34,259 bases of DNA from DHVE2 group archaeon (GCA_015523125.1 WAKX01000048.1:1-34259); one strand, 5' to 3'; positions 1 through 27,370 are shown, counted from the first letter of the stretch. Translations and numbers: made by a program. The notes: generated by a model from the sequence alone, not told the origin.

Positions 1-2
1 AC

Positions 3-1118
3 CCGCGCGCGTTGTTTGATTTTTTGTTAAAAAATAAGGAGATTTCGAAGAATTTCCAGTTGGTTTGGGAGGTGGCGGACAAAAAAGTTTTAGAGCAATT
101 GAGAAATATAAATATAAATGCGTATCTACAGACCAGTGCTAAAGGAGCATGGGAGTTCATGAGATCAAAATACATCGTTACCTCGCATGGAGATTACATA
201 AATTACAAAGCAGGAGGACAAATACTGATAAACTTAGGGCATGGAATGGCTTTAAAATCGGCGGGATTATTGGACAAAACCGAAGAAAAAGAAGTTAAAA
301 AATGGTTTTTAAAGAGATGGAGAAAGGGGTGCGACGGCATAATAGCCACTTCCAAAATCATGAAGCACATACTTTCATCTTCGTATTGGTTCGATCCCCA
401 AAAGGTGTATATTACGGGGCAACCGCGAAACGACAAATTGTTCACGGAAGACGGAAAGAAAAATCTGGAAAAAATATTGAACATGGATCTATCTAAATTT
501 GAGAAAATAGTTCTTTTCGCGCCCACCTTCAGAGTTTGGAGATCCAGAAATTCCACCGTGGGCAATCCCAGAGAAAACATTCTTGGATTTCAGGATTTCA
601 ACATGAAAACTTTCTCTTCCTTCCTAAAGGAAAATAAAATATTGTTCATACTCAGATTCCATCCGGAAGAGGAGGCTTTGTATTATAACGTGGAGTTGGG
701 AGACAATATTGTATTGCTCACCTCGGAAATGATTATAAAAAATTTGCTCACAATATACGATTTTCTCAATGCAATAGACATACTGATAACCGATTACTCG
801 TCCATTTACTACGACTTTTTGATTTTAGATAGACCCATGATCTTCGTACCCATAGATAGGGAGAAATACGCAAAGGAAAAGGGTGGTTTCTCAGTGGAGC
901 CCTACGATTTCTGGACCGCAGGGCCAAAAGTTTACACATTCAAAGATTTCATTGCAGAACTGAAAAAGTGCGTGGATGATCCGAATTATTATCACGAAGA
1001 AAGGGAAACAATCAACAAATTAACGAATAAATACAGAGATGCCAACTCGTCCGCAAGAGTCTGGGAGCTCCTTCAAAAATTGAGTAAAAAAGAATCCGTT
1101 GACGAGTTTGTTTATTAA
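3..1118 (+). CDS. TagB/TagF-like CDP-polyol phosphotransferase (5' end cut off by window)
   Basis: Glycosyltransferase-like enzyme of the CDP-glycerol glycerophosphotransferase family (TagB/TagF/TarL), which moves glycerol-phosphate or ribitol-phosphate from a CDP carrier onto a growing surface polymer at the inner face of the membrane. The frame is open to the left edge and the first residues (PRALFDFLLKN) already match the inside of the family domain, so the true start lies upstream; the TTG at 12 is not a convincing start. Family landmarks are present in order: HGMALK near base 240, YITGQPRND near 410, FAPTFR near 520, LRFHP near 650 and ITDYSSIYYDF near 790. Downstream, after 46 bases, is a CDP-ribitol-synthase-like gene, which supports a CDP-polyol donor. 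Whether the polyol is ribitol or glycerol cannot be read from sequence. Family call is confident; substrate is inference. Confidence 0.85.
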   Translation, partial: PRALFDFLLKNKEISKNFQLVWEVADKKVLEQLRNININAYLQTSAKGAWEFMRSKYIVTSHGDYINYKAGGQILINLGHGMALKSAGLLDKTEEKEVKKWFLKRWRKGCDGIIATSKIMKHILSSSYWFDPQKVYITGQPRNDKLFTEDGKKNLEKILNMDLSKFEKIVLFAPTFRVWRSRNSTVGNPRENILGFQDFNMKTFSSFLKENKILFILRFHPEEEALYYNVELGDNIVLLTSEMIIKNLLTIYDFLNAIDILITDYSSIYYDFLILDRPMIFVPIDREKYAKEKGGFSVEPYDFWTAGPKVYTFKDFIAELKKCVDDPNYYHEERETINKLTNKYRDANSSARVWELLQKLSKKESVDEFVY

Positions 1119-1124
1119 TGAAAA

Positions 1125-1160
1125 TTTTTTATATCTCCGCCTTATTGTCGTTTTCGGTGT
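1125..1160 (+). promoter_or_regulatory. TATA box and GGTGT ribosome site before the CDP-ribitol synthase gene
   Basis: TTTTTTATAT at 1125-1134 is a good archaeal TATA box; transcription would begin near 1155-1160. GGTGT at 1156-1160 lies 4 bases before the ATG at 1165. The bifunctional gene can therefore be transcribed independently of the transferase gene before it. Confidence 0.5.
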
Positions 1161-1164
1161 TTAA

Positions 1165-2559
1165 ATGAAAAACGTGGCAGTGATTTTAGCCGGCGGAGTG
1201 GGTGAGCGATTTGGTTCAGAGATTCCAAAGCAATTTATAAAGTTAGCAGGGAAACCAGTGATCATTCACACACTTAAAACATTCGAAGAGCACCCGCTTA
1301 TTCACGAGATATACGTCGTGGTTCCAAGGGAACATTACAGCTATGCAATAGAGCTCATCCACAGATACGAGTTCAAAAAAATCAAAAAAATTCTGATAGG
1401 GGGAGACACGAGGCAGGAATCTTCTAGAATTGGCGTTTTTGCATGCGGAGATGATGTGGACAACGTACTCATACATGATTCGGTGAGGCCCTTCATATCC
1501 AAGGAAATAATCACGAATGTCATCGAAGCTTTAAATAAATATCCCGGCGTTGACGTGGCAATTCCATCTCCGGACACCATAATAGAAATTTCAAATGAAA
1601 ACACCATAGAAAATATCCCTCCGAGAAACATGCTGAGACTCGGCCAAACCCCCCAGGGGTTCAAGAGAGATATCATAATGAAAGCACACCAAATGGCACT
1701 GAACGAGGGATTCAACAAGGCCACCGATGATTGCGGATTGGTTCTCAGATACAAATTGGGAGAAATCTACGTGGTAGATGGTTCCGAGTACAATATAAAA
1801 ATCACGAGGCCGCTGGATATACATCTGGCAGATAAAATATTTCAGCTAAAGCACATCAAAATCTCCGGAAAAATCGATCCTCATGTTAAAGAATATGTTA
1901 AAGGAAAGGTGATGGTAGTTTTCGGAGGCACCAGCGGAATAGGGAAAGACTTAGTGGATTTGTGGAATAATTTGGGAGGTTTCGCATATCCATTCTCCCG
2001 CAGGAATGGTGTGGATATAACTAAATCGAAAGACGTGGAAAACGCTTTGAAGAAAGTTTGCGAAGAAAAAAACAGGATAGATGTGGTGGTATGCACCGCT
2101 GGAGTTCTGAAATTGGAATTCTTTGATAGAACGAGCATGGATGAAATAATGGATGAGATTAACGTTAATTTCGTGGGCAGCATCGTTGTAGCCAAAGCTA
2201 GTATTCCCTATCTAAAAGAGAGTAGGGGAAGTTTGATTCTATTTGGTTCGAGCTCCTACACCCGAGGTAGAGCGGGATACATAATTTACAGTGCAACAAA
2301 AGCGGCACTTGTGAACTTCGTTCAGGGACTCTCCGACGAACTCAGCGACTACGGCGTTCGGGTAAATATCGTTGTTCCTGAAAGAACGGACACTCCCATG
2401 AGAAGGATGAACTTCGGAAACGAAGACAAATCCCTCCTATTGTCATCCGAATTCGTGGCAAAGGTCACAATAAATGCCATCGGAAGCGATATAACCGGCT
2501 CGGTGATACACGTAAGAAAGCAGGATGAGATGAGGGAAAGGATGAATGGTGATATGTGA
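1165..2559 (+). CDS. Bifunctional polyol-phosphate cytidylyltransferase / short-chain reductase (CDP-ribitol synthase type)
   Basis: Two fused enzymes. Residues 1 to about 230 are an IspD/TarI-type cytidylyltransferase: the nucleotide-binding motif AGGVGERFGSEIPKQF spans about 9-24 and HDSVRPF spans 104-110. Residues about 250-464 are a short-chain dehydrogenase: GGTSGIG near 254-260 binds NAD(P), and the catalytic Tyr375-x3-Lys379 pair follows a GSSS serine segment. This order and length (464) match the Acs1/Bcs1 type of Haemophilus capsule clusters, which reduces ribulose 5-phosphate to ribitol 5-phosphate and activates it with CTP. Archaea make isoprenoids by the mevalonate route (an HMG-CoA reductase gene lies at 15808), so an IspD role in the MEP pathway is unlikely. 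The neighbouring TagF-like transferase is the obvious user of the product. The stop overlaps the next start by one base (TGATG). Confidence 0.85.
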   Translation: MKNVAVILAGGVGERFGSEIPKQFIKLAGKPVIIHTLKTFEEHPLIHEIYVVVPREHYSYAIELIHRYEFKKIKKILIGGDTRQESSRIGVFACGDDVDNVLIHDSVRPFISKEIITNVIEALNKYPGVDVAIPSPDTIIEISNENTIENIPPRNMLRLGQTPQGFKRDIIMKAHQMALNEGFNKATDDCGLVLRYKLGEIYVVDGSEYNIKITRPLDIHLADKIFQLKHIKISGKIDPHVKEYVKGKVMVVFGGTSGIGKDLVDLWNNLGGFAYPFSRRNGVDITKSKDVENALKKVCEEKNRIDVVVCTAGVLKLEFFDRTSMDEIMDEINVNFVGSIVVAKASIPYLKESRGSLILFGSSSYTRGRAGYIIYSATKAALVNFVQGLSDELSDYGVRVNIVVPERTDTPMRRMNFGNEDKSLLLSSEFVAKVTINAIGSDITGSVIHVRKQDEMRERMNGDM

Positions 2560-3569
2560 TGTCACTAAAGATAGCAGCCGTGGTGGTTACTTACAACAGA
2601 AAAAAACTTCTTATTGAATGCATTAATGCATTAATAAATCAAACACGCCCTCCAGATGCAATATTTATAATAGACGGACCATCAACAGACGGAACTCCTG
2701 AAGAACTGAAAATCCATGGGTATATTGAAGAGTTGCCACCAGAAAAATATGAAGAATATTCATGGCAAACAAATAATTCAATCAACGTAAAAGATGATTT
2801 CTCTATTAATTTGCGATATGTGCGGCTTTACGAAGATGTCGGCGGAGCTGGTGGCTTTTACGAAGGAATTAAGAGAGCCTATGAAGCAGGATATGACTGG
2901 ATATGGGTAATGGACGATGACGCGGAGCCGCACTTAGACGCCCTTGAAAAATTAATAAAATATACAAATCTCCCAAATGTCGTGGCTTTGAAAAATTTTG
3001 TTGTTGATCCCAACGGAAATCCCCAAGAATACCACTGGGATCCAAACTATTCTTTTATTTTGAAAGTACCCTTTCATATAAATACCTATGAGCATGATTT
3101 TGTTGATGTCCCATATGGATCTTTTGTAGGATTACTCATTAATGCAAAAACCATAAAAAAGATTAAATATCCAAAAAAGGAGCTTTTTATATATCATGAT
3201 GACTTCGAATATAGCTTAAGATTAAAGTACTTTGGGAAAATTTATTTGATTCCTGATTCTATAATCATCCACAAAGGAGACCCGCCACATGCAAAAAAAA
3301 GAAAAGATAATCCATATTTCTGGTTCAAAACATATATTTCAATTAGAAACAAAGTATATATTGTTAAAAAGTATTATTGGAATAAAAGAGATAAAATAGA
3401 GGTGATATATTACTTAGCAAAACAATATTTATACGAAACTCTCAAAAATCGCCCGTCGAACGTCCCTTTTTTAAAATGGACAATATATATAATGCGAGCA
3501 TATACTGACGGGATTTTTGAAATATTTGACAATGAGAAGCCAAAGAGAATAATACAAAGGAGGGTTTAA
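2559..3569 (+). CDS. GT-A glycosyltransferase, family 2 (GlfT/rhamnosyltransferase-like)
   Basis: Inverting sugar transferase of family GT2, probably cytosolic at the membrane, adding a sugar to a lipid-linked or surface glycan. It opens with AAVVVTYNRKKLL, the first strand of the GT-A fold, then has DVGGAGGFYEGI near residue 93 and the metal- and nucleotide-binding WVMDDDAEP near 116-124, a combination typical of galactofuranosyl/rhamnosyl transferases of the GlfT1/RfbN type. HDDFEYSLR near 213 fits the acceptor-site (ED)xE region. Start: ATG 2559 is preferred over GTG 2556 because GGTGAT at 2548-2553 is 5 bases away. It overlaps the preceding stop (TGATG). Base composition drops clearly from here to 4746. 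The sugar donor is unknown. Confidence 0.85.
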   Translation: MSLKIAAVVVTYNRKKLLIECINALINQTRPPDAIFIIDGPSTDGTPEELKIHGYIEELPPEKYEEYSWQTNNSINVKDDFSINLRYVRLYEDVGGAGGFYEGIKRAYEAGYDWIWVMDDDAEPHLDALEKLIKYTNLPNVVALKNFVVDPNGNPQEYHWDPNYSFILKVPFHINTYEHDFVDVPYGSFVGLLINAKTIKKIKYPKKELFIYHDDFEYSLRLKYFGKIYLIPDSIIIHKGDPPHAKKRKDNPYFWFKTYISIRNKVYIVKKYYWNKRDKIEVIYYLAKQYLYETLKNRPSNVPFLKWTIYIMRAYTDGIFEIFDNEKPKRIIQRRV

Positions 3570-3571
3570 AA

Positions 3572-3688
3572 ATGATTTTTGCTATTATTAAAAATAAAAA
3601 ATATAATGTATGTTTAGATTTAATATATAAAAGATACCTCCCCCTCAGACAACTTATAAACATAACATATAAGGAGGAGCTAATATGA
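3572..3688 (+). CDS. Small 38-residue ORF between glycosyltransferases
   Basis: An ATG at 3572 lies 2 bases after the preceding stop, behind a strong GGAGG at 3559-3563, and opens a 38-codon frame (begins MIFAIIKNKKYN, ends ITYKEELI). Its TGA at 3686-3688 overlaps the next gene's ATG at 3685-3687 as ATGA, and the next gene's own Shine-Dalgarno (AAGGAGG, 3671-3677) lies within its last codons. This is the layout of a translationally coupled gene. The peptide has no motif I recognise; it could be a real small protein, a leader peptide that carries ribosomes to the next gene, or the remnant tail of a lost glycosyltransferase. Composition is as AT-rich as the neighbours. Confidence 0.4.
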   Translation: MIFAIIKNKKYNVCLDLIYKRYLPLRQLINITYKEELI

Positions 3689-4746
3689 ATTCTCAAATAA
3701 TAAAATACCTAATATGTACCTTAAAATGTCCAGAAAAAATAACTTTTAAAGATGTTTTTGTAGAATCACTAAGGAGATACTATTTAAAAACACAAAAAAA
3801 ATATAACTTTTTTATACATAAAAAATATTTTTTAGATAATAGAAAATCTTCAAAAACAAGTATCTTAGTATTAATGGGCAAATATGACTTTCTATGGGAG
3901 GTCACTCTTAGAAGAATTTATGAATATGGAGAAAAATATAATGTGATATTGGTAAATCCAGGAGGTTTAAATGGCACCAAATCAAAATTATTGGCGAAAA
4001 ATTATGACTGGAGTTATTTTGAAAGCTATCCAGCATCGCTTGAATCGGCAGAAAATTATGTCATATCAAATATTATTGAAAGCCCTTTTATAATCAAAAT
4101 AGATGATGATATTTTTATAACACCAGATACTTTTAGGAAATTAGAAGATGGCTACATAAAATTAAAGAAAAAAGATTTTGATATAAGTTTTGTTGCACCA
4201 CTTATTAATGTTAACACTATTGGATACTACTATTTTCTAAAAACAACAAACCTTATTAATGAGTTTTCAAAAATTTTTGAATACCCCAACATATTTAGAA
4301 ATTGGAAACGCCAAAAAATATGGTATGATGGAAATGCAGCAAAATGGATTTGGGAACACTCACTCCCATTAAATGAGTTGGGAAATGAAATAGCAATAAT
4401 GAATAATGGTCTCTTTGAGCCCATACCCACTAGATTTTCAATAGGATTAATTCTTTTTGAAAAATCTTTTTTTAATAAAACTAACGGTTTTATTTCAAAT
4501 CTTCCGAGAGGGATGAACAAATTATTTAAAAATATAGATAATAATACAAGCGGTATTTATGTTAATATTCCATTACTTCCAGATATTGATGAATCATCTA
4601 TAAATTTTTACAGTGATTGGGCGCATTACGGTAAATTTATGATTTTAGATTCTTTTGCTGGTCATTTTTCATATTATCCTCAAACAAATATAATGAAAAA
4701 ATGGTATGAAAATAATAAATCATCTTTGATTAAAGATCTTAATTAA
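3685..4746 (+). CDS. Putative GT-A type glycosyltransferase, AT-rich
   Basis: A 353-residue protein I cannot place in a named family. FIIKIDDDIFITPD near residues 135-148 looks like the DxD metal/nucleotide-sugar motif of a GT-A fold, and ILVLMGKYDF near 60 could be the first strand. Aromatic-rich C-terminal half with FYSDWAHYGKFM near 312 and a GHFSYYPQ segment. No signal peptide or clear membrane span. Its start is fixed by AAGGAGG at 3671-3677 and by the ATGA overlap with the 38-codon ORF. By hand count, 15 of 60 bases at 4081-4140 are G or C against 26 of 60 at 13501-13560, so this gene looks recently acquired, as surface-glycan genes often are. It ends the cluster; 149 bases of AT-rich spacer follow. 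Confidence 0.65.
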   Translation: MNSQIIKYLICTLKCPEKITFKDVFVESLRRYYLKTQKKYNFFIHKKYFLDNRKSSKTSILVLMGKYDFLWEVTLRRIYEYGEKYNVILVNPGGLNGTKSKLLAKNYDWSYFESYPASLESAENYVISNIIESPFIIKIDDDIFITPDTFRKLEDGYIKLKKKDFDISFVAPLINVNTIGYYYFLKTTNLINEFSKIFEYPNIFRNWKRQKIWYDGNAAKWIWEHSLPLNELGNEIAIMNNGLFEPIPTRFSIGLILFEKSFFNKTNGFISNLPRGMNKLFKNIDNNTSGIYVNIPLLPDIDESSINFYSDWAHYGKFMILDSFAGHFSYYPQTNIMKKWYENNKSSLIKDLN

Positions 4747-4895: not shown

Positions 4896-7800
4896 ATGAG
4901 AGGGAAATTGCTATCTCTGGTAATTGTGGGAACAATGATTTTCATCACTTTGCAGGGAATGGCTTCGTACGGGCAAAATTTATACGCGTCTTCCGCACCG
5001 CAGAGGCTCGACTATGGGACATGGAACGATGGCAATGATGAATACATAATGAATGGGGTCTTTGTGAGCAACAACCTTATCCTTGGGGGCTACGGACATA
5101 ACCATAATGATGCACTCTTACTCAAATACGACACAAGCGGAAATCTCCTGTGGCACAAATATTTGGATTTTGGAGGAACGAAAGAATCAATCAATAGTCT
5201 CACAGTGGATGATGACGGCAATATTGTAGTAACCGGCAATACGAATAATGGGAACAACGGAGACATGGTTATTGCCAAACTTGATTTAAATGGAAATGTT
5301 ATCTGGGAGAAAACGTATGATAGTGGTTCAACTGATCAAGGGAGGGATGTGATTTACGATTCGTCCGATTCAACATACGTGGTTGTAGGCGAGGGAAAAT
5401 TTGAAGATTCATATATCTGGAAATATGACAAAAACGGAAACCAGCTATGGGTAAAGGACATTGCACCCCCTGGGTTTAATTACGATATATTGGACTATAT
5501 AATAAAAGTTGGAAATGACTATTATGTGTATGGGTATGGTGACAACACTACCACGTACACCAAAGATTGCTTTATAGAGGAAGTGAACACCAACGGAAAA
5601 GTTATATCCACCATCTCCGTTGGAACTACCCAATATGATGACAGGCCAACGGGATTGGTATATATGGACAATTATTTATACGCAGCAGCCAGCGTAGACA
5701 TGGAATATACAAAGCTTTACAAATTCGCAACCGATGGAACAGAGATATGGACAAAGGACATCCAAGAGGATTACAAAACGTTGTTGCACCCAAGCGAAGA
5801 AAATAACACTATCCTGCTCGATGGTTTTGTGGAAGACAGTTCGGGCAACACAAAGGTAAACATGGTTGAATTCGACGAGAGCGGAAATGCACTCTGGTGG
5901 TTTAACGACACCGTCACAAATAAGGACTACATACAGAATCAGGCAATCTGGGAAAACAATTACACTTTCTACATTGCAGGGAACACTACAAACGTTTCAG
6001 ATGGTACTCAGGATGCACTGTGGGTAAGATATTCATGGATCTCGAATGACAACATTTCACCAACAGTAAATATTCAGAGCCCTACAGAAAACGCAATTAC
6101 AAATTCCACCGTGGAGCTCAAATGGACTGGAAGCGATAATGTGGGAATAGAGCATTATGAAATCTCAGACGGGGGAAGCACGTGGATTAATGTCGGAACT
6201 TCAAACAATTACACGTTCACCTCTTTATCTGGAGGGGAACACACTCTATATGTCAAAGCTTATGATTACTCCGGGAATACAGGAATGGATGAGGTCAACA
6301 TCACAGTGGATAATCAACCACCTCAAATTTCAATTATAACGCCGCAGGATGGAAGTTTTCAGAATCAAGATGTATATATGAAATGGAACGCTTCGGATAA
6401 TACAGGCATAGACCATTACGAAGTTTCGGACGGAGGTAGCACGTGGATTAACGTGGGAACCACCACACATTACACATTTACGGGTTTAACTCAAGGGAAG
6501 CACACGCTGTACCTAAAGGCATATGATATTGTAAATAATATTGCTGAGGAATCGGTGAATATAACTGTTGACAACTACATTCCCAAAGTATACATAATCA
6601 CACCAAACAACGGAGTGTGGTTAAACACCTCGGACGTGAATGTTGTGTGGGCAGGGAGCGATGACAACGGTATAGACCACTACGAAGTATCCTCCAATGG
6701 TTCATCGTGGATAAATGTAGGATTGAAAACCAACTATGAATTTAAAAATTTGAAGGAAGGAGAAAATGCGCTGTACGTCAAAGCGGTGGATGTTGCAGGC
6801 AACGCGGGAATAAGTTACGTGAAAGTAAACATTGATCAAACTCCACCCACAGGAAGCATAATAAGTCCCGCATCGGAATACATCTCATACAGAAATGTAA
6901 CATTAAAATGGAGCATGGAAGACAATTGGGGTGTGATGGATTGCCAAGTCTCCTCGGGTCAGTACTGGATTGACGTCGGAATATCCACAAACTACACCTT
7001 CAAAAATCTGAGTGAGGGAAGTTATAACCTCTCCGTCAAAATAATTGACAATGCGGGAAATTACCATATTTATTCCACGAGGATAATCGTTGATCTAACG
7101 CCGCCGCAGTTAACAATAAGCCATCCGCTCGAAGAGGAATTTTTGAATTCATCTTCAATAAATGTAAATTGGGGCATCATGGAAAAAAATGGTCTTTCCA
7201 CATTGAAAATAAAAATTGACAAAAGTGCATGGGCCAATTTAAGTCTTAACGCGAGAAACTATGAATTCAATGTGGATGATGGAATGCACAGAATAACAAT
7301 AATGGCGGTGGATTTGGCTGGAAACGAAGTCGTTAAAAGCGTAAACTTCACCGTCGATACCGTGGCACCTACGCTGTATTTCACATCTCCTTCGAATGAC
7401 GCATGGCTCAACAAGAGCACTGTAAATATAGAATGGGCATGCTCCGACACATGGGGAATAAGCAAAATGATGATAAGAATGGATAACCACAGCTGGAAAG
7501 AGCTACAGGCGAAGGTCAGAAGTTATTCCTTAAATATACCAGAAGGAAAGCACATCATCGAAATTTTAGCAATGGACCAAGCAAAGAATATTGCGGAGGT
7601 AAAAGAAACAATAGGGGTAGATTACGAGAATCCGATTGTAAAAATAAACCTCGAGAAAAATTACATATCTATTAACGCAAGCGACAACATATCCGGAATA
7701 AAGGCAATAATTTACAGCATAGACGGCGGTTCATGGGAGAACTACGATGGAAAGATTAACATGGAAGAGCTAAGCGCGGGAACACACAATATTTCAGTAA

Positions 7801-8078
7801 TCGTTGAAGATTACGCGGGGAATAAAGTGTACTTAAATAAAACATTTGAAACTAGAGAAATGCAATACTACTCCTACAATTCAGGAAATAACCTAATGCT
7901 GCTGTTGGCCCTTATCGGAATAATAATCGCGTTGGCGATTGCAATGTTCATAATGGCAGTTCGCTACAGAGAAGAAATAAGAAGATTAAAAGAGATAGCT
8001 CAGGGAACCACGGAAGAAAAAACGGAACCGCTGGAGGAAAGCAAAGAAGAAAAAGAAAATCAGAACAATTCCCCGTAA
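4896..8078 (+). CDS. Large membrane-anchored extracellular protein with propeller-like head and Ig-like repeats
   Basis: A 1060-residue secreted protein. Residues 1-25 form a signal peptide (basic MRGK, then a hydrophobic run). Residues about 35-385 hold repeated blades with patterns such as DTSGNLLWHKYL, DLNGNVIWEKTYD and DKNGNQLWVKDI, as in PQQ/SBBP-type beta-propellers. From about 388 to 985 there are seven Ig-like units of about 87 residues starting near 388, 475, 561, 649, 735, 823 and 911, with the recurring cores GSTWINVG, YTF, LYVKAYD and ITVD. A single membrane span lies near 1000-1022, followed by a charged cytosolic tail of about 40 residues rich in Glu and Lys. Many N-x-S/T sequons suggest N-glycosylation. 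Likely an adhesive or structural surface stalk; the exact role is unknown. It follows the surface-polymer cluster but has its own promoter. Its 3' end overlaps the transaldolase gene by 19 bases. Confidence 0.85.
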   Translation: MRGKLLSLVIVGTMIFITLQGMASYGQNLYASSAPQRLDYGTWNDGNDEYIMNGVFVSNNLILGGYGHNHNDALLLKYDTSGNLLWHKYLDFGGTKESINSLTVDDDGNIVVTGNTNNGNNGDMVIAKLDLNGNVIWEKTYDSGSTDQGRDVIYDSSDSTYVVVGEGKFEDSYIWKYDKNGNQLWVKDIAPPGFNYDILDYIIKVGNDYYVYGYGDNTTTYTKDCFIEEVNTNGKVISTISVGTTQYDDRPTGLVYMDNYLYAAASVDMEYTKLYKFATDGTEIWTKDIQEDYKTLLHPSEENNTILLDGFVEDSSGNTKVNMVEFDESGNALWWFNDTVTNKDYIQNQAIWENNYTFYIAGNTTNVSDGTQDALWVRYSWISNDNISPTVNIQSPTENAITNSTVELKWTGSDNVGIEHYEISDGGSTWINVGTSNNYTFTSLSGGEHTLYVKAYDYSGNTGMDEVNITVDNQPPQISIITPQDGSFQNQDVYMKWNASDNTGIDHYEVSDGGSTWINVGTTTHYTFTGLTQGKHTLYLKAYDIVNNIAEESVNITVDNYIPKVYIITPNNGVWLNTSDVNVVWAGSDDNGIDHYEVSSNGSSWINVGLKTNYEFKNLKEGENALYVKAVDVAGNAGISYVKVNIDQTPPTGSIISPASEYISYRNVTLKWSMEDNWGVMDCQVSSGQYWIDVGISTNYTFKNLSEGSYNLSVKIIDNAGNYHIYSTRIIVDLTPPQLTISHPLEEEFLNSSSINVNWGIMEKNGLSTLKIKIDKSAWANLSLNARNYEFNVDDGMHRITIMAVDLAGNEVVKSVNFTVDTVAPTLYFTSPSNDAWLNKSTVNIEWACSDTWGISKMMIRMDNHSWKELQAKVRSYSLNIPEGKHIIEILAMDQAKNIAEVKETIGVDYENPIVKINLEKNYISINASDNISGIKAIIYSIDGGSWENYDGKINMEELSAGTHNISVIVEDYAGNKVYLNKTFETREMQYYSYNSGNNLMLLLALIGIIIALAIAMFIMAVRYREEIRRLKEIAQGTTEEKTEPLEESKEEKENQNNSP
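6060..7850 (+). repeat. Seven tandem Ig-like domain repeats within the surface protein
   Basis: Period is about 260 bases (87 residues). The first two units are the most alike: near 6174 and 6435 the DNA reads almost identically (AGCACGTGGATTAA, then TGTCGGAAC or CGTGGGAAC). Later units diverge, and the last, near 7630, is shortened. The gradient suggests recent duplication at the membrane-distal end. Confidence 0.75.
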
Positions 8079-8860
8079 CCGGCTTTCTCAGCGTCTTCGC
8101 TGAATTTCTTTACCCCTTCCTCCGTTTTTGGATGAAGAAGCATATCTTCGAGAACTCCGAAGGGTATCGTGGCGATGTGCGCCCCAATCATAGCCGCTTC
8201 TCGAACCTGCCTCGCGTTGCGAATGCTGGAAGCGATGACCTCGGTTTCGTAATCGTAGTTGTCAAGAATCATAACCACTTTCTCCACTAAATCCGTGCCG
8301 CTTTTTATACCATTGTCGTCCACGTCCATGCCGTCCCATGGATAGTAATCCCCCTTCTGGAAATCCTCTCCGGGTTTCATCCCTAACTTAGTGGTGCGTA
8401 TGTAATCGTCTATGCGCCCTGCGAATGGGCTCACGTACCTCGCTCCAGCTTTCGCCGCAAGAAGCGCCTGCTCCGGTGTCATAATAAGGGTACAATTCAC
8501 CGGTATTCCTTCCTCGCTCAGCGCTTTTATCGTCTTCAATCCCTCGTAATAACCGGCGTAGGTGTTCACGGGCACTTTGATAACCACATTCTTCGCAATA
8601 TTGTTGAACCTCTCGTAGAGGATTTCGGCCTCTTTTATCATCTTCTCGGCCTTTATGCTCATGACTTCGAGGCTCACGGGCCTCTCGGGGCCTGCAACCT
8701 TCAGTATGTTTTCGATGTAATCTTCTAACTTCATGCCCTTTGCCTCTGTTTCAACCGCTTTTCGTATGAGCGATGGGTTCGTGGTCACTCCGTCCACTAT
8801 GCCCCACGATATTGCTTCTTTTATTTCGCTAATCTTGGCAGTATCGATAAATATCTTCAT
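8060..8860 (-). CDS. tal: Transaldolase, TalC/MipB class
   Basis: Transfers a dihydroxyacetone unit between sugar phosphates in the non-oxidative pentose phosphate pathway, or acts as fructose-6-phosphate aldolase, a known relative. The TIM-barrel family signatures are plain: FIDTAKISEIKEA at the N-terminus, GVTTNPSLI, VVIKVPVN carrying the Schiff-base lysine, YVSPFAGRIDDY and TEVIASSIRNARQV. At 266 residues it is about 50 longer than the usual 215-residue class members; about 28 extra residues (TTKLGMKPGEDF onward) interrupt the loop after GRIDD. The start overlaps the transketolase C-subunit stop (ATGA), behind an excellent AAGGAGGTGA. Last gene of the minus-strand operon from 12236; its end overlaps the surface-protein gene. 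Confidence 0.92.
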   Translation of the reverse strand: MKIFIDTAKISEIKEAISWGIVDGVTTNPSLIRKAVETEAKGMKLEDYIENILKVAGPERPVSLEVMSIKAEKMIKEAEILYERFNNIAKNVVIKVPVNTYAGYYEGLKTIKALSEEGIPVNCTLIMTPEQALLAAKAGARYVSPFAGRIDDYIRTTKLGMKPGEDFQKGDYYPWDGMDVDDNGIKSGTDLVEKVVMILDNYDYETEVIASSIRNARQVREAAMIGAHIATIPFGVLEDMLLHPKTEEGVKKFSEDAEKAGYGELF

Positions 8861-9804
8861 TTTTTCACCTCCTTAAGAAAGGCGAGCATTTCTTTTGCAA
8901 TTCCCTTATCGTCCATTCCGTAATGTTCAAGAAGAACATTCCATTTTCCACTTCTTCCGAACCTATCCTTCATCCCGTGGCGATGCATCCTAACTGGATA
9001 ATTCTCAACCAGAACTTCCGCAACCCTCGAGCCGAGACCGTTGTATATATTGTGGTCTTCCACGGTCATTATAGCTCCCGTATCCTTTGCAGCTTTCACG
9101 ATTATGTCTTTATCTATGGGCTTAATCGTGCTCATGTTTATCACACGAATATCGTAGCCTTCCTTCTTCAGAATTTCTGCGGCGAGGAGAGAGTAAGAAA
9201 CTTCTATTCCCAAGGCGATTATGGTGGCATCCGCGCCGTCTCGCATTAATCTCCCTTTTCCAAATTCGAATTCATCATCCTCTGATGTGAGATTTGGAAG
9301 CGCGGTGCGGGTGAGTCGCACGTAGAACGGACCATGCTCTTTCGCGACGAATCTTATGACCCTGCGAACCTCGTTGGAATCGAGAGGCGCGATGACTCGC
9401 ATATTTGGCAGACCGCTCATCAATCCGAGGTCTTCAATCATCTGGTGCGATGCTCCGTCTTCCCCTACCGTAACTCCGCCATGAGTGGCCACGATATTCA
9501 CATTCAACTTGGGGTATGCGATGCTCTGCCTCACTTGGTCGTATGCTCTTCCCGTTGCGAATACTGCGAAAGAAGATGCAAAGACAGTTTTTCCACTCCT
9601 CGCAAGGCCCGCGGCGATGCCCATCATGTTCTGCTCCTGCAAACCAACGTTGAAAAATCGATCCGGAAACTCTTTACCGAACATCGCAGTTTTCGTGCTC
9701 GTGCTTAAATCTGCGTCCATCACCACGATATCTTCTCGCTCTTTTCCTAACGCTATAAGCGTTTCCCCGTACGCTTTCCTAGGAGATTCGTATTCCCAGT
9801 TCAT
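8857..9804 (-). CDS. Transketolase, C-terminal subunit
   Basis: Carries the pyrimidine-binding and C-terminal domains of transketolase; must pair with the N-terminal subunit encoded just upstream to transfer two-carbon units between pentose and hexose phosphates using thiamine diphosphate. Seen: MDADLSTSTKT and FNVGLQEQNMMGIAAGLA, with the conserved glutamate that activates the cofactor, GEDGASHQMIEDLGLM, and the C-terminal EDHNIYNGLGSRVAEVL. Length 315 is normal for split archaeal and bacterial forms. The start ATG overlaps the N-subunit TGA as ATGA, and its stop overlaps the transaldolase start, so all three are probably made in fixed ratio. A DXPS role is less likely given the separate N-subunit and transaldolase neighbour. 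Confidence 0.93.
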   Translation of the reverse strand: MNWEYESPRKAYGETLIALGKEREDIVVMDADLSTSTKTAMFGKEFPDRFFNVGLQEQNMMGIAAGLARSGKTVFASSFAVFATGRAYDQVRQSIAYPKLNVNIVATHGGVTVGEDGASHQMIEDLGLMSGLPNMRVIAPLDSNEVRRVIRFVAKEHGPFYVRLTRTALPNLTSEDDEFEFGKGRLMRDGADATIIALGIEVSYSLLAAEILKKEGYDIRVINMSTIKPIDKDIIVKAAKDTGAIMTVEDHNIYNGLGSRVAEVLVENYPVRMHRHGMKDRFGRSGKWNVLLEHYGMDDKGIAKEMLAFLKEVKK

Positions 9805-10646
9805 ATTTTTCGCCTCTCTTCTTCAAGTTCTTTAAGCGCCCTTTCATATTCCTCCTCATTCTGCGGCGGCTTTCCGTGATATTTTGCGGTGTTCTCCATG
9901 TAGCTCACACCCTTCCCCTTCACGGTGTGTGCGATTATTACCGTCGGCCTCCCCTTCGTCTTCTTAGCTTCGTCCAGAGCTCGAATTATCTGAGTCACAT
10001 CGTGCCCGTTTATGGATATTACTCTCCACCCGAATCCGCGCCATTTCTCCTCTAATGGATCCAGTTCCACCATACGGTCCGTGAAATCGTCCAACTGAAT
10101 CTTATTGCGATCCACAATTGCCACCAAATTGTCCAGCTTTCTCGTGGCGGCGGTCATTGCCGCTTCCCAGACATTGCCCTCTTCTATTTCCCCATCGCCC
10201 AATAGAACGTAAACTCTATAGTCCCTTTTGTCCATCTTTCCAGCGAGGGCCATGCCGATCCCCGCGCTGAGTCCCTGTCCCAACGAGCCGGTGCACATGT
10301 CCACGCCGGGAACCATGAGAGAGGGATGCCCCTGAAGATAGGAATTCACATCCCTGAATGTTAGCAAATCTTCCTCGGGGAAGAATCCCCTCATTGCCAG
10401 CGCGGCATAATAAGCAGCGGATGCATGACCTTTGCTGAGAACGAATCTATCGCGATCTGGCCACTCTGGATTCTTCGGGTCAACGCGCATTTCGTGGAAA
10501 TAGAGAACGGCTAAGATGTCTGCGGCGCTCAGCGCCCCTCCCGGATGTCCGGATTGTGCGCGGTAAATCATCTTTATGCTCCACACCCTGAGGTCATTGG
10601 CAATCCTCTTCAACTCTTTTACTTTTTCGGGGTCAATTGATGACAT
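9801..10646 (-). CDS. Transketolase, N-terminal subunit
   Basis: Thiamine-diphosphate-binding half of a split transketolase (281 residues). The cofactor and Mg motif LLGDGEIEEGNVWEAA continues to LVAIVDRNKIQ, giving GDG and the following Asn. SGHPGGALSAADILAVLY, SKGHASAAYYA and GSLGQGLSAGIGMA are transketolase landmarks. It functions with the C-subunit just downstream (ATGA overlap). Only 12 bases separate it from the end of the Cas4-like gene upstream, so the three pentose-phosphate genes appear to depend on a promoter farther up, near 12260. The supply of ribulose 5-phosphate may feed the CDP-ribitol synthase at 1165; that link is inference. Confidence 0.94.
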   Translation of the reverse strand: MSSIDPEKVKELKRIANDLRVWSIKMIYRAQSGHPGGALSAADILAVLYFHEMRVDPKNPEWPDRDRFVLSKGHASAAYYAALAMRGFFPEEDLLTFRDVNSYLQGHPSLMVPGVDMCTGSLGQGLSAGIGMALAGKMDKRDYRVYVLLGDGEIEEGNVWEAAMTAATRKLDNLVAIVDRNKIQLDDFTDRMVELDPLEEKWRGFGWRVISINGHDVTQIIRALDEAKKTKGRPTVIIAHTVKGKGVSYMENTAKYHGKPPQNEEEYERALKELEEERRKI

Positions 10647-10658
10647 TATGGGTGTATT

Positions 10659-11369
10659 TCAAAGCCCCTTATTAGCGTTTTCCTTCAACTTATGATAATA
10701 CACACAAAACTCCCTGTACCTGCATCTCTCGCATTTGTTCAGAGATGGCTCAATCGAAGGAATTACCACATCCTTCAAAAGTAGGTAAATATCGTAAAGC
10801 GTTCTTTTTATTTCCTCCTCATCCTCGGATGCGAAGGTTTTCACATAGAGTATTTCCCCGGTATCTCTACCCCGCACGATTACCCTTATCTCCCTGTCTG
10901 GCTTGAATTTATCCCTGAATGCGAGGGCGTAGCCGAGCACCTGCATGATTTCTCCCTTATACACCCTATCCCCGGGCTTGTCGTCGATTATCTCCACCCG
11001 GTCGGGATATATTGCCAGCTCGTCTATCTTGCAGGATAATTGGTATTTCTCGAATTTCGTTTTGAATGCAAATTCTCTGAACACGAACCCTTTGTTCTCC
11101 ATCTTCGAAAGGAAAAGCGCATCCTCGATGCTTACTTCCTCCTTCACATTCATCTCGTGAATTATCTCCTTCACTGCGTGAGCCTTAGTACCTATTTCCA
11201 TCTCCTTCGTCGGCGGCAATTCTATCCCCTTAACCCGATACAGATACAGCTGGTACGGGCAGTAAAAATAGGTCTGAATCCAGCTGGCCCAGATGTACTT
11301 TTTGTACTGGTAAAATCTCTCGTATTCCCCCTTCTTATCTTCGGGAACCTTCGCAATTATCACTTTCAT
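10659..11369 (-). CDS. Cas4-like PD-(D/E)XK nuclease with Fe-S cluster
   Basis: A 236-residue member of the Cas4/RecB-like family (DUF83). Expected parts are visible: Cys37 in TYFYCPYQLYLYR and Cys213, Cys216 and Cys222 near the C-terminus, the four ligands of a 4Fe-4S cluster; His64 in GTKAHA; Asp116 in CKIDEL; Asp129-x-Lys131 in EIIDDKPGD; and Gln143 in EIMQVLGYALAF. All catalytic residues look intact, so a 5'-3' single-strand DNA exonuclease or related activity is expected. No CRISPR repeats or other cas genes are seen, so this is probably one of the stand-alone archaeal Cas4 homologues, perhaps in repair. AGGTGA precedes the ATG. It sits in an operon with unknown membrane proteins upstream and transketolase downstream. 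Confidence 0.85.
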   Translation of the reverse strand: MKVIIAKVPEDKKGEYERFYQYKKYIWASWIQTYFYCPYQLYLYRVKGIELPPTKEMEIGTKAHAVKEIIHEMNVKEEVSIEDALFLSKMENKGFVFREFAFKTKFEKYQLSCKIDELAIYPDRVEIIDDKPGDRVYKGEIMQVLGYALAFRDKFKPDREIRVIVRGRDTGEILYVKTFASEDEEEIKRTLYDIYLLLKDVVIPSIEPSLNKCERCRYREFCVYYHKLKENANKGL

Positions 11370-18911: not shown

Positions 18912-19500
18912 ATAGGATGTACGAGAGAACTATCCCCACTATGCTTAAAATCATTAGAATAGCGTATATTCCTGAGTTCCAATGTATAACCTTCAGACCA
19001 TCCATCTGGGGGATTGGCAGGAGATTGAAAAACGCCAGAAAGAAGTTGAAATATGCGACGTACCAGAAAACGACTCCCATGTTATATGGCACGAATGGAA
19101 GCATACCGATAAGAATGAATCCTAATACTATGTTCGTCGTGGGTCCAGCGGCTGAGATTATTCCATTTTCCCTTTTTGAAGGATACCCGTATACCATAAC
19201 CGCTCCGGGCGCTGCGAAGAGAAATCCTACGAAGGAGCTGGCCAGAGCGATGCCCAAGCCGAGATACCATGCCTTGAACGCCGCCGGAAACCCATATTTG
19301 AACGCCATGTACTTGTGAGCCATCTCATGCAGGAAGAACCCCGTGAGAACGGCCAGGGTTGATAAAGGAAGCATGGAAGCGAAATGGGAGTAAGAGCCCA
19401 TTAAAATAGATAAAGAGAGGATGAGGACGCCCAAAGCGATTATTATATCCACTATTTCCCGGGGATAAAACCTGAATTTCGGCTTCGCGTAGTAGGTCAT
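18910..19500 (-). CDS. M50 family intramembrane zinc metalloprotease
   Basis: Site-2-protease-like enzyme cutting peptide bonds inside or near the membrane. The zinc motif HEMAHK (His58, Glu59, His62) lies in a membrane segment, and LLPIPQMDGLKV near 160-171 supplies the third ligand aspartate (Asp167) of the NxxPxPxxDG signature. Around six hydrophobic segments in 196 residues and no PDZ domain, the compact archaeal form. Its ATG overlaps the TPR gene's stop as ATGA, implying coupling to the giant TPR protein; whether they work together is inference. Substrates unknown. Confidence 0.9.
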   Translation of the reverse strand: MTYYAKPKFRFYPREIVDIIIALGVLILSLSILMGSYSHFASMLPLSTLAVLTGFFLHEMAHKYMAFKYGFPAAFKAWYLGLGIALASSFVGFLFAAPGAVMVYGYPSKRENGIISAAGPTTNIVLGFILIGMLPFVPYNMGVVFWYVAYFNFFLAFFNLLPIPQMDGLKVIHWNSGIYAILMILSIVGIVLSYIL

Positions 19501-22500
19501 AGCCTCAAATCCTCCTCTTGCTCGCGCTCTTCTTCCTCCACGAGTTCCTCTTCGCTGTAATCCACTTTTTCTTCTCTATCCTCTACATTTTTTTCCTCAG
19601 CCGCATCTTCTTCGAAATCCTCCTGCTCTTCTTCTTCGTCTTCCTCTAAGTCCTTCAGTATTTTTCTTATCTTTTTGGCCGTGCAAATTCCTATGTCGAG
19701 ATTTAGCATGAGGTTCAGTAGCGATTTGTTCTTAATGTCCATTTCGATTGCCCTTTTAACGAGTTTTTCCTCCTCTGTGCTTATTTCCTCAGGCACTCCG
19801 TGGGACATACAATAATCAATGTATTTCAGTAGGCGCTTGGCTTTACTCACGGAGAGGTTGGTATTTCCTACGATATCTCCAAGGGACAGGTTCTCTATCT
19901 TATGTATTTTTTTAGCCAGCACATAGGTGGCCTTTTCGAATTTCTTCTTTTCCTCGTCGCTCAATTCCCCAACGTTCAGGGGTTCTTCTTCCTGTATGTA
20001 TTTGAACACCCTTGGGAGTATGGCGAGGGGGATGTCCAGCTTCTTGAACGCCTCTTTCTTCGTTATTTTCTTTCCCGTCTTGAACTCTAAGACCAGTATA
20101 TCGCGTGCGTATTTCTCGATTTCTTTGTTTTCTATTATTCTTTCGGTGTCCTTCAAACCTTCAACTGCCGGCTGGAACTCAGCATCTAGCGAAACTGCTT
20201 TTTCGAACGCTCTTTTCGCGTCTTCGTATTTTTCCAATTTCATGAGAAGTTGACCCTTCGTGGTCCACAGATGCTTGTTCTCGGGCTCCATCTCAATAGC
20301 CAGATCTACGTATTTCAACGATTCGTTCAAATCTCCCAGCTTCTCGTATACGAACGCTAAGTTTTCGCAGAGCTCCCTGTTATGCGGGTTGATTTTGTAA
20401 GCCATTAAGTAAGCATCCTTCGCATCTTCGTATTTTTCGTTGGCCATGTTTATTCTTCCCAGCCCCAAATAAGCGTTAATATTCTCTTTATTCTTTTCCA
20501 GTATTTTTCTGTAAATTTCCTTAGCATCTTCCTGCCTGTTCTCTTTCTCCAGCGCATAAGCTAGAAGCTCCATGGCCCTCTCGTTCCCCTCCTTTGCCGG
20601 CGCCTTGAGGGTGCTTATTGCCTCCGCGTATTCACCGGAATCTACCAAAATCTTGCCCAGAAGTACCCTTATCTCCGGAGTATCATCGATATTCAGAGCT
20701 TTCTTTCCGTATTTTAGGGCATTGTTCATATCTCCTCTCTCGGAGTAAATCTTTGAAGCCATGAGATAGTATTTCGCGGCTTTCTTCATCTTAATTGCCT
20801 TACGTATTGATGTGAGGGCGAAATCCATCTCCCCTATTCTGTACTGTGCCAAAGCCATTTTGTAGTAAATTTCCGGATCCTCTTCGATTTTTAGGGAATC
20901 GGCGTAATACTTAATTGCTCCCTGGTAGTCCTTCTTCTTGTAATAGAGCTCTCCGAGGGAATCGTAGACTTCCTTTGTCATCTTCACGTTCAGGGCTCGA
21001 AGTAGATAATCTTCCGCTTCGTCGTATCTCTGCATCTCCATGTACGCTTTCCCCATATCAAGCAGGGTTTGGAAATCTTCAGGTTCGATGGATAAAATTT
21101 TCTTCCCGATGTCTATGAGGTCCGGATATCTCCTCTCTTTGATGAATATGTCTTTGAGCTCGTACATGAAAGAAATGTTGTCGGGGAAAATCTCCAGAGC
21201 GCGGCGATAAGTGGTAACTGCGCTATCAACCTTTCCTAAGTTAATGTATGCCATGGCTAAATCGCGATATGTGTTCATGTTTCTGCCGTTTATGTCCAGT
21301 ATGCTCCTCGATACTTCCACCACGCAGTCCCAATTTTCAACGCTCTTGCAGCAATCTTTCTTCAACTCCAAGTACTTCTCGTCCTTCTCGTATTTGAGCG
21401 CTTCCTCGATGTCCTTCTCGCATGCCTCCCGCTCCCCCTTCTTGAATTCTATGAAAGCCCTCTTATATAGGGCAAGATGATTCGCCGGCTCTAATTTCAG
21501 GAGAGAATTGAAAGCCTTCAGCGCCTCGTCCAGATGCTCCAACTGGAGGAGAACTTCGCCCTTCTCCATGAGCGCTTTGGTGAATTTTGAATCAATCTTG
21601 AGCGCCTCGTCGAAGCATTTTAGTGACTCTTCCCATTCTCCAAGCTTTTCGAGGCACAAGCCCTTCTCGTACCATATTCTCATATCCTTAGGGTCTATCT
21701 CAATCGCTTTATCGAAAGCTTTGAGGGCCTCCTCGTACTTTTCCAATTTCTCCAGAACCCAGCCTAAGTTGCTCCAGTACTTCTTAACCCCTCCCTCAAT
21801 CTCGGTTGCTCTCTCGAAGGATTTCTTAGCTCCTTCCAAATCGTTGAGTTTGTAGTTTATCATTCCATTGAGGTTCCACGCGTTTCCGGTTTCCTTTATT
21901 CTGAGAGCCTTGTCCATTGCCTTCTTCGCTTCGGCAAAGCGTCCGAGGGTGTAATATGCCCTGGCCATATCGTAGTAAGCGTCAAAATCTTCCACAATTC
22001 CGGTTATTCCGACGCAAGCGTTAACGACCTCATTGGGCTTGTTCACCTTCTTCGCCATCTCCTTCTGCATCTTCCAGAGCTCAACGTTTTTGGAATCTAT
22101 CTGGGTGGCTTTTTTGAGGAAATGAAGAGAACTTTCGTACTTCTCCATGTTTTCGTATGCCTTTGCTATGTCTACCATGGTCTCCACGTTCTTTGGATCA
22201 ATCTCCAAAATCTTCTCGCATGTCGTTATAACCTTCTCCCACCGACCCATGGCTATCAGTGTGTTCTTTTGAAGAATCAATGTGGGAAGATGATGCGGTG
22301 AGGAGTTAAGGATGGAATCTATAACCTGCAGCGCCATCTCGTAATTTTTCATTTTGAAATACGATTCCGCCAAATCGTAATATATATCCAAATCTCTCTT
22401 CCCAATGTCGATGAGATCGTGGCATGTTTTCGCCATCTCCTCCTCCACGTACTTCTTTTTCAAAATATCCCTTTTTAAGAGAAGAACCTTCACATCTTTT

Positions 22501-23426
22501 TTAAGCGAGAGTGCCTGATTCACACTTTCAAGGGCATCATCGTAATTTTCTGTGTCGTATTCTATCTCTGCCCGCAGGGCCCATGTGTTGGGATCGTTGG
22601 GGTCTATCTTTATTCCCTCTTTCACCGCTTTTAACGCGTCTTCGTATTCGCCCCTCTTTTTGTATATCACCGCGAGGTTCACCCATGCGTGCTTGTCCTC
22701 TGCATCTATCGATATAACCTTTTTGAATGCGTTTATGGCCTCTTCGTACTTCTCAATTTTCTCGTACGCTGCCCCCAGGTAAAGGTACGCTTCCTTGTTG
22801 TTGGGATTGATGTTGACCACCGTCTGAAGTGTGGTGGCGGAGGAATCAAAGTTTCCCTTGTCGTATAGCAGAATTCCTTTCTTCAGGAGTATTTTTTCGT
22901 CGTTGGGCTTGTACTTCAGATATTTCTCGTAATATTTCAGCTCCTCCGGATAGAGATTGATTAAATTCAGGTATATTTTAAGCGCCTCATCCACATCTCC
23001 CATGGCCTCGTAAATCTCCGCCTTTGTCTCCCATGCGCCCTTGCTCTTTCTGTTCATGGCTATTGCCTTGTCCACGGTGCTTAATGCCAGATCATAGTTT
23101 TTCCTGTTTTTGAGGGCCCGGGCGTAAAACACATATGCGTTAATGTTTTTAGAATCCAGATTTATCGCCATCTTCAACGCGTATTCCCCGTTTTTGAAAT
23201 CGTCCAGGGAGTTAAGCTGATTTCCTAAGTTGGCCAGCAGCTCTGAGAAATCTTTCTTTTTATCCTTTATTAAACTGCTATTGGCTTTTATATTCTCCAG
23301 CGATTCTAAAAAAAGGGAATGGGCCTGAGATGAATCCTTAGGGAGAGTCTTCTCCCCCTTGACATATAATTTTTCGGATTTTTTGAGCAATCTAACCTCT
23401 TTGTTGAGCAGGGAATCGAAGACCAT
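19497..23426 (-). CDS. Giant TPR-repeat protein with C-terminal helix-turn-helix-like repeats and acidic tail
   Basis: A 1309-residue protein without signal peptide or membrane span, so cytosolic. From about 35 to 1085 it is almost entirely tetratricopeptide repeats, roughly 30 units with patterns such as AYLYLGAAYEKIEKYEEAIN followed by AFKKVISID, and KYWSNLGWVLEKLEKYEEAL followed by KAFDKAIEIDP. From about 1100 to 1253 come three similar helical units (YARDILVLEFKTGKKITKKE; ATYVLAKKIHKIENLSLGDI; LVKRAIEMDIKNKSLLNLML), each ending in a KxxRxIL/RLLKYI-like helix and resembling small helix-turn-helix domains. The last 55 residues are mostly Glu and Asp. TPR arrays bind protein partners; this is likely a scaffold, possibly contacting nucleic acid. 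GGTGATT puts the start at ATG 23426, not TTG 23429. First gene of the operon with the M50 protease. Confidence 0.88.
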   Translation of the reverse strand: MVFDSLLNKEVRLLKKSEKLYVKGEKTLPKDSSQAHSLFLESLENIKANSSLIKDKKKDFSELLANLGNQLNSLDDFKNGEYALKMAINLDSKNINAYVFYARALKNRKNYDLALSTVDKAIAMNRKSKGAWETKAEIYEAMGDVDEALKIYLNLINLYPEELKYYEKYLKYKPNDEKILLKKGILLYDKGNFDSSATTLQTVVNINPNNKEAYLYLGAAYEKIEKYEEAINAFKKVISIDAEDKHAWVNLAVIYKKRGEYEDALKAVKEGIKIDPNDPNTWALRAEIEYDTENYDDALESVNQALSLKKDVKVLLLKRDILKKKYVEEEMAKTCHDLIDIGKRDLDIYYDLAESYFKMKNYEMALQVIDSILNSSPHHLPTLILQKNTLIAMGRWEKVITTCEKILEIDPKNVETMVDIAKAYENMEKYESSLHFLKKATQIDSKNVELWKMQKEMAKKVNKPNEVVNACVGITGIVEDFDAYYDMARAYYTLGRFAEAKKAMDKALRIKETGNAWNLNGMINYKLNDLEGAKKSFERATEIEGGVKKYWSNLGWVLEKLEKYEEALKAFDKAIEIDPKDMRIWYEKGLCLEKLGEWEESLKCFDEALKIDSKFTKALMEKGEVLLQLEHLDEALKAFNSLLKLEPANHLALYKRAFIEFKKGEREACEKDIEEALKYEKDEKYLELKKDCCKSVENWDCVVEVSRSILDINGRNMNTYRDLAMAYINLGKVDSAVTTYRRALEIFPDNISFMYELKDIFIKERRYPDLIDIGKKILSIEPEDFQTLLDMGKAYMEMQRYDEAEDYLLRALNVKMTKEVYDSLGELYYKKKDYQGAIKYYADSLKIEEDPEIYYKMALAQYRIGEMDFALTSIRKAIKMKKAAKYYLMASKIYSERGDMNNALKYGKKALNIDDTPEIRVLLGKILVDSGEYAEAISTLKAPAKEGNERAMELLAYALEKENRQEDAKEIYRKILEKNKENINAYLGLGRINMANEKYEDAKDAYLMAYKINPHNRELCENLAFVYEKLGDLNESLKYVDLAIEMEPENKHLWTTKGQLLMKLEKYEDAKRAFEKAVSLDAEFQPAVEGLKDTERIIENKEIEKYARDILVLEFKTGKKITKKEAFKKLDIPLAILPRVFKYIQEEEPLNVGELSDEEKKKFEKATYVLAKKIHKIENLSLGDIVGNTNLSVSKAKRLLKYIDYCMSHGVPEEISTEEEKLVKRAIEMDIKNKSLLNLMLNLDIGICTAKKIRKILKDLEEDEEEEQEDFEEDAAEEKNVEDREEKVDYSEEELVEEEEREQEEDLRL

Positions 23427-23459
23427 CAATAATCACCCGTGTCAGTATTTACTCCCTGT

Positions 23460-24786: not shown

Positions 24787-27370
<2,584 letters not shown>

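Follow-up and report, generated by a model that had tools for sequence, protein, structure and literature searches.

Do the genes at one end of this archaeal contig direct the synthesis of a teichoic-acid-like polyol-phosphate polymer, as an earlier note on this DNA proposed, or of a surface glycan of another kind? The DNA analysed (34,259 nucleotides; the window) is the entire contig C48 of a 62-contig, 1.54-Mb genome (completeness 95%, contamination 0.5%) of a DHVE2 (Aciduliprofundaceae) archaeon. As judged from gene content, the genes at its left end probably form an exchangeable cassette, within a genomic island of DHVE2/Aciduliprofundaceae, for the addition of at least one ribitol-5-phosphate to a lipid-linked surface glycan.

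Gene organization and genomic origin of the island

Four same-strand ORFs lie side by side at the left end, in agreement with the earlier description, and are followed by a gene for a surface protein and by core genes.

3..1118, plus strand: gene 1, TagF/TarF-like CDP-polyol phosphotransferase (PF04464); 5' end lost at the edge of the contig
1165..2559, plus strand: gene 2, IspD-SDR fusion (PF01128 and short-chain dehydrogenase)
2556..3569, plus strand: gene 3, GT2-family glycosyltransferase, weakly GlfT1/rhamnosyltransferase-like; starts within the end of gene 2
3685..4746, plus strand: gene 4, orphan with a DDD motif, possibly a glycosyltransferase of the GT-A type; below all family cut-offs
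4896..8078, plus strand: Ig-like repeat surface protein, secreted and membrane-anchored; possible glycan acceptor
8060..10646, minus strand: transaldolase and split transketolase, core genes; right-hand boundary of the island

Gene 3 shares its first 4 nt with the end of gene 2. The surface protein carries 28 N-X-S/T sequons, as compared with 17.2 +/- 3.7 in shuffled sequences, and is a possible candidate acceptor of the glycan.

The GC content of the island (0.355) is below that of the remainder of the contig (0.466) and the island genes are bacterial-like, both in line with bacterial contamination at the contig end. Archaeal core genes, however, share this contig, TFIIB and RadA being found on it as expected from the archaeal context described earlier. 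Furthermore, the first 2165 bases are 95.8% identical in DNA to a contig of a second DHVE2 MAG (G003), the proteins of genes 1 and 2 being 98% and 96% identical, respectively, and the G003 contig continues into the MTA phosphorylase (MTAP) gene and further genes of the family. The equivalent slot is also occupied in the same-family genome G011, a single contig of 1,486,778 bases, which we take to be probably Aciduliprofundum boonei, and in each of the four genomes compared (the C48 genome, G011, G009 and G004) the island has a higher AT content than the flanking DNA. Given the copy in G003 and the synteny of the G011 slot, contamination is excluded in practice, and this extremely improbable reading, against which the earlier note had cautioned, was dropped.

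With respect to the two glycosyltransferases claimed for the cluster, gene 3 was supported by its match to Glycos_transf_2 (74.9 bits), but gene 4 stayed below the cut-offs, the match to Galactosyl_T reaching 16.3 bits (E 0.009) where 23 are required; a GT-A glycosyltransferase is no more than suggested, by a DDD motif at residue 140. For gene 4, no convincing relative was found among solved structures and no homologue among 295 Thermoplasmatota genomes, and a single-sequence structure model (pLDDT 33) was worthless. A GT2-fusion gene pair shared with Parabacteroides was considered and rejected as generic GT2 similarity only (27% over 150 residues).

The IspD-SDR fusion and its predicted product

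Gene 2 encodes in one ORF an IspD domain (PF01128, 172 bits) and a short-chain dehydrogenase domain (105.7 bits), and the motifs of both halves are complete (LAGGxGxRFG, PKQF, QTPQ and TDD for IspD; GGTSGIG, SSSY and YSATK for SDR), confirming the CDP-ribitol-synthase-like fusion recognized previously. Structure and family matches were to MEP and ribitol-5-phosphate cytidylyltransferases; the score against the NCBIfam D-ribitol-5-phosphate cytidylyltransferase (166.5 bits) is barely over its cut-off of 166, and the IspD domain cut-off is also exceeded. IspF is absent from the genome assembly (95% complete) and HMG-CoA reductase is encoded on contig C48, so that a role of gene 2 as the IspD of the MEP pathway was ruled out within the limits of the assembly.

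The full-length identity of gene 2 is 53% to the G011 protein, 48% to that of Parabacteroides and 45% to that of E. coli O118/O151, the latter two, designated "bifunctional cytidylyltransferase/SDR family oxidoreductase", being the nearest full-length non-archaeal relatives found. As in the bifunctional enzymes of the Acs1 type and of E. coli O118/O151, Proteus and Parabacteroides, IspD is followed by SDR in one polypeptide with all the catalytic motifs; the sequences compared, those of E. coli, Proteus and Parabacteroides, are 45-48% identical to gene 2 over the full length, and the likeness to Haemophilus Acs1 is one of architecture. Gene 2 differs from the bacterial fusions in its archaeal setting, both genome and island, and in its neighbouring transferase, which is TagF-like; the loci of Parabacteroides and E. 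coli O118/O151 have LicD instead, along with Wzx or a sugar transporter and with a Wzy polymerase. On an IspD tree without Haemophilus sequences, gene 2 sits with fusions of O-antigen/capsule loci, apart from the IspD of E. coli and Collinsella; the fusions are not united in a single clade, and support is weak at several forks.

Glycans with ribitol phosphate are known in bacteria and, among animals, on dystroglycan. In the human ISPD/FKTN/FKRP system of dystroglycan, as is predicted here, CDP-ribitol is synthesized by an IspD-type enzyme without the MEP pathway and ribitol phosphate is placed on a glycan, but the C-terminal part of human ISPD has no demonstrated reductase activity, and the transferases FKTN and FKRP belong to a LicD-like family and are not TagF-like.

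No glycerol-phosphate cytidylyltransferase exceeded the cut-off in the genome (best match, 49.5 bits vs 165.4), which points to ribitol as the likeliest polyol and, as predicted from sequence, to CDP-ribitol as the likeliest donor. The SDR half could act on another ketose phosphate, in which case the fusion might make another CDP-polyol such as CDP-arabinitol and the glycan would bear that phosphopolyol: IspD-like enzymes activate several polyol phosphates, the specificity of the SDR is unreadable from sequence, and gene 2 is over the cut-offs of both IspD and ribitol-5-phosphate cytidylyltransferase. We regard this as quite unlikely in view of the architecture, which is that of the Acs1-type enzyme described as ribulose-5-phosphate reductase/CDP-ribitol pyrophosphorylase (PMC4873967), and of the 45-48% identity over the full length to bifunctional enzymes of bacterial polysaccharide loci.

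The distribution was surveyed among the 295 Thermoplasmatota genomes (completeness at least 80%). IspD matches were detected in 176 of them; strong matches (E < 1e-30) were confined to 12 and stand well apart from the weak ones, which make up most of the matches and which we take for other nucleotidyltransferases. Fusion-sized frames are present in five of these 12 genomes (the C48 genome, G011, G184, G208 and G193), and PF04464 was over the cut-off in 27 of the 295.

The variable slot in related genomes

The MTAP gene is followed by a Wzx-like flippase gene (PF01943) in G011, G009 and G003, and transaldolase/transketolase genes are located beyond the cargo in G011 and G009, as on C48. The order of the slot is thus MTAP, flippase, variable cargo and transaldolase in G011 and G009, and flippase, variable cargo and transaldolase in G004. 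In G011, a TagF-like gene (32% over 354 residues) and an IspD-SDR fusion (53%) stand next to each other in the slot that is used on C48. The IspD and SDR genes of G009 are unfused and are accompanied by a TagF-like gene and a gene for a sulfatase-family protein, and G004 carries genes of the dTDP-sugar type together with an asparagine-synthase-like gene and a different TagF-like gene. For G003, the contig covers the left side of the slot, with MTAP, flippase, GT2, GT4, a 405-aa TagF-like protein and the beginning of the fusion gene. BLAST against the loci read, together with inspection, placed an asparagine-synthase-like gene after the flippase in G006, and an unrelated gene, without glycan cargo, beside the flippase in G002 and G007. 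The flippase was not found in the assembly of C48 itself but was seen in G003, G004, G009 and G011 with variable glycosyltransferase cargo. The picture is of an exchangeable surface-glycan island, and a slot whose cargo differs between species resembles, in an archaeon, the switching of O-antigen/capsule loci.

The TagF-like gene adjoins the fusion in G003, G011 and, divergently, G193, and the fusion of G208 is located beside LicD. TagF-like genes are also present without strong IspD in G004, G005 and G013, indicating that donor and transferase need not be coupled. A coupling of the transketolase and transaldolase to the cassette through the supply of ribulose-5-phosphate was considered but is weak, since the transaldolase bounds the slot also in G004, where no IspD was found, and is thus to be taken as a boundary gene and not as evidence of a coupled pathway.

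Two further features of the relatives may be added. The sulfatase/alkaline-phosphatase-family protein of G009 (L032:9244-10596) is perhaps phosphoglycerol-transferase-like or sulfate-removing. In G004 and G013 (L034:10519-13716 and L033:9997-13915), a second type of TagF-like gene lies beside the asparagine-synthase-like gene, possibly forming another phosphopolyol or phosphosugar cassette.

The TagF-like transferase and the nature of the glycan

In the profile search against PF04464 Glyphos_transf, gene 1 gave 220.9 bits (cut-off 22.1), as expected if the first gene is TagF-like. About 34 N-terminal residues are missing at the contig end; the full-length homologue in G003 (L031:1048-2265) is 405 aa in length with 98% identity. 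Matches among PDB structures include TarL, TagF, Cps3D and Bcs3. Residues 80 and 220 of the ORF in the window, both His, are equivalent to H444 and H584 of S. epidermidis TagF, both known to be catalytic; entry 3l7m has Ala at the position equivalent to H584. Gene 1 shares with TagF/TarF/TarL and Bcs3 the family (PF04464), both catalytic histidines and the DYSS motif, but differs from them in being short and single-domain, with remote alignments only, and in scoring under every equivalog cut-off (TarF, 80 bits against 550; TarL, 73 against 1000; TarB, 44 against 500). No relatives of gene 1 were found in viral contigs.

These properties bear on whether the product is a true teichoic-acid-like polymer, in which the TagF-like enzyme polymerizes many ribitol phosphates into a chain anchored to lipid or wall. 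PF04464 includes the polymerases TagF and TarL, the catalytic histidines of gene 1 are kept, and, as no Wzy-type polymerase was recognized in the stretches read, a TagF-like enzyme could take over polymerization, for which reason we leave this reading a small probability. It is nevertheless doubtful. With its length of about 405 aa and its low equivalog scores, gene 1 falls outside the TagF/TarL polymerases; no TagO-type PNPT primer (PF00953) was found in the 95% complete genome by a search that gave positives in two of the archaeal control genomes; no TagGH ABC exporter was noticed in the island, the relatives having a Wzx-type flippase at this place; to our knowledge, archaea are without peptidoglycan, and an anchor of this kind is thus lacking; and the island resembles a Wzx-dependent O-unit or N-glycan island, with regard to the Wzx-type flippase, GT4 and GT2 of the relatives and to an AglB encoded in the genome. 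The polymer proposed in the earlier note was therefore not upheld. Its more specific form, a poly(ribitol phosphate) of DHVE2 as a teichoic acid without peptidoglycan, made by a polymerase resembling TagF and passed from species to species in the manner of a serotype cassette, is likewise unlikely.

Decoration of a lipid-linked glycan with ribitol phosphate, the reading that we prefer, accounts for the parts with the fewest assumptions. The SDR half of gene 2 would reduce D-ribulose-5-phosphate to D-ribitol-5-phosphate, perhaps with NADPH, a cofactor guessed from Arg-Arg after the second strand, and the IspD half would convert D-ribitol-5-phosphate and CTP into CDP-ribitol. The gene 1 product would then add ribitol-5-phosphate to a lipid-linked glycan that the neighbouring GT2/GT4 glycosyltransferases are assembling, and a Wzx-type transporter, of the kind encoded at the island's left margin in the relatives, would flip this glycan for delivery to the surface, either to S-layer protein via AglB or as a glycolipid. 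Ribitol as the substrate, the pairing of this donor with this acceptor, the number of ribitol-phosphate units, the carrier and the final attachment are what we infer within this scheme.

An AglB-type STT3 ligase is encoded in the genome. Its ORF (contig C20, L092:2119-8412) is 2097 aa in length, unusually long for AglB; the STT3 part is followed by carboxypeptidase-regulatory-like domains, and the protein has a membrane helix at its C-terminus.

A phosphopolyol glycan on an archaeal surface had been considered unusual. This stands in so far as no archaeal CDP-ribitol synthase or ribitol-phosphate glycan was found in the literature searched, the coverage of which was incomplete; the archaeal reports appear only as gene annotation. 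TagF-like genes have, however, already been noted in an archaeon, Methanobrevibacter ruminantium M1, which is reported to carry homologues of teichoic-acid genes, including CDP-glycerol-type glycerophosphotransferase genes, and to have a wall as high in phosphate as teichoic-acid walls (PMC2812497, 2010); its transcriptome lists one transferase of this kind (PMC5816558). Methanobrevibacter differs from the present case in its pseudomurein wall, no such wall being expected in DHVE2, and in that a predicted CDP-ribitol synthase is adjacent here, whereas no statement on ribitol or CDP-glycerol was found in the main text of its genome paper. With an intact CDP-ribitol-synthase-type enzyme, no IspF and a likely cultured relative (G011), the question of an archaeal phosphopolyol glycan is now directly testable.

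Several other genes of the window were recorded. Searches for anti-phage defence families gave no matches, and a Cas4/PD-(D/E)XK nuclease-like gene (10659-11369) adjoins the transketolase genes. A 1310-aa protein consisting nearly entirely of TPR repeats (19497-23429) is encoded beside an M50-type peptidase gene, and the GAPDH encoded at 26201-27370 is of the bacterial type (type I; 452.6 bits against the TIGR01534 cut-off of 367) and not of the archaeal type II.
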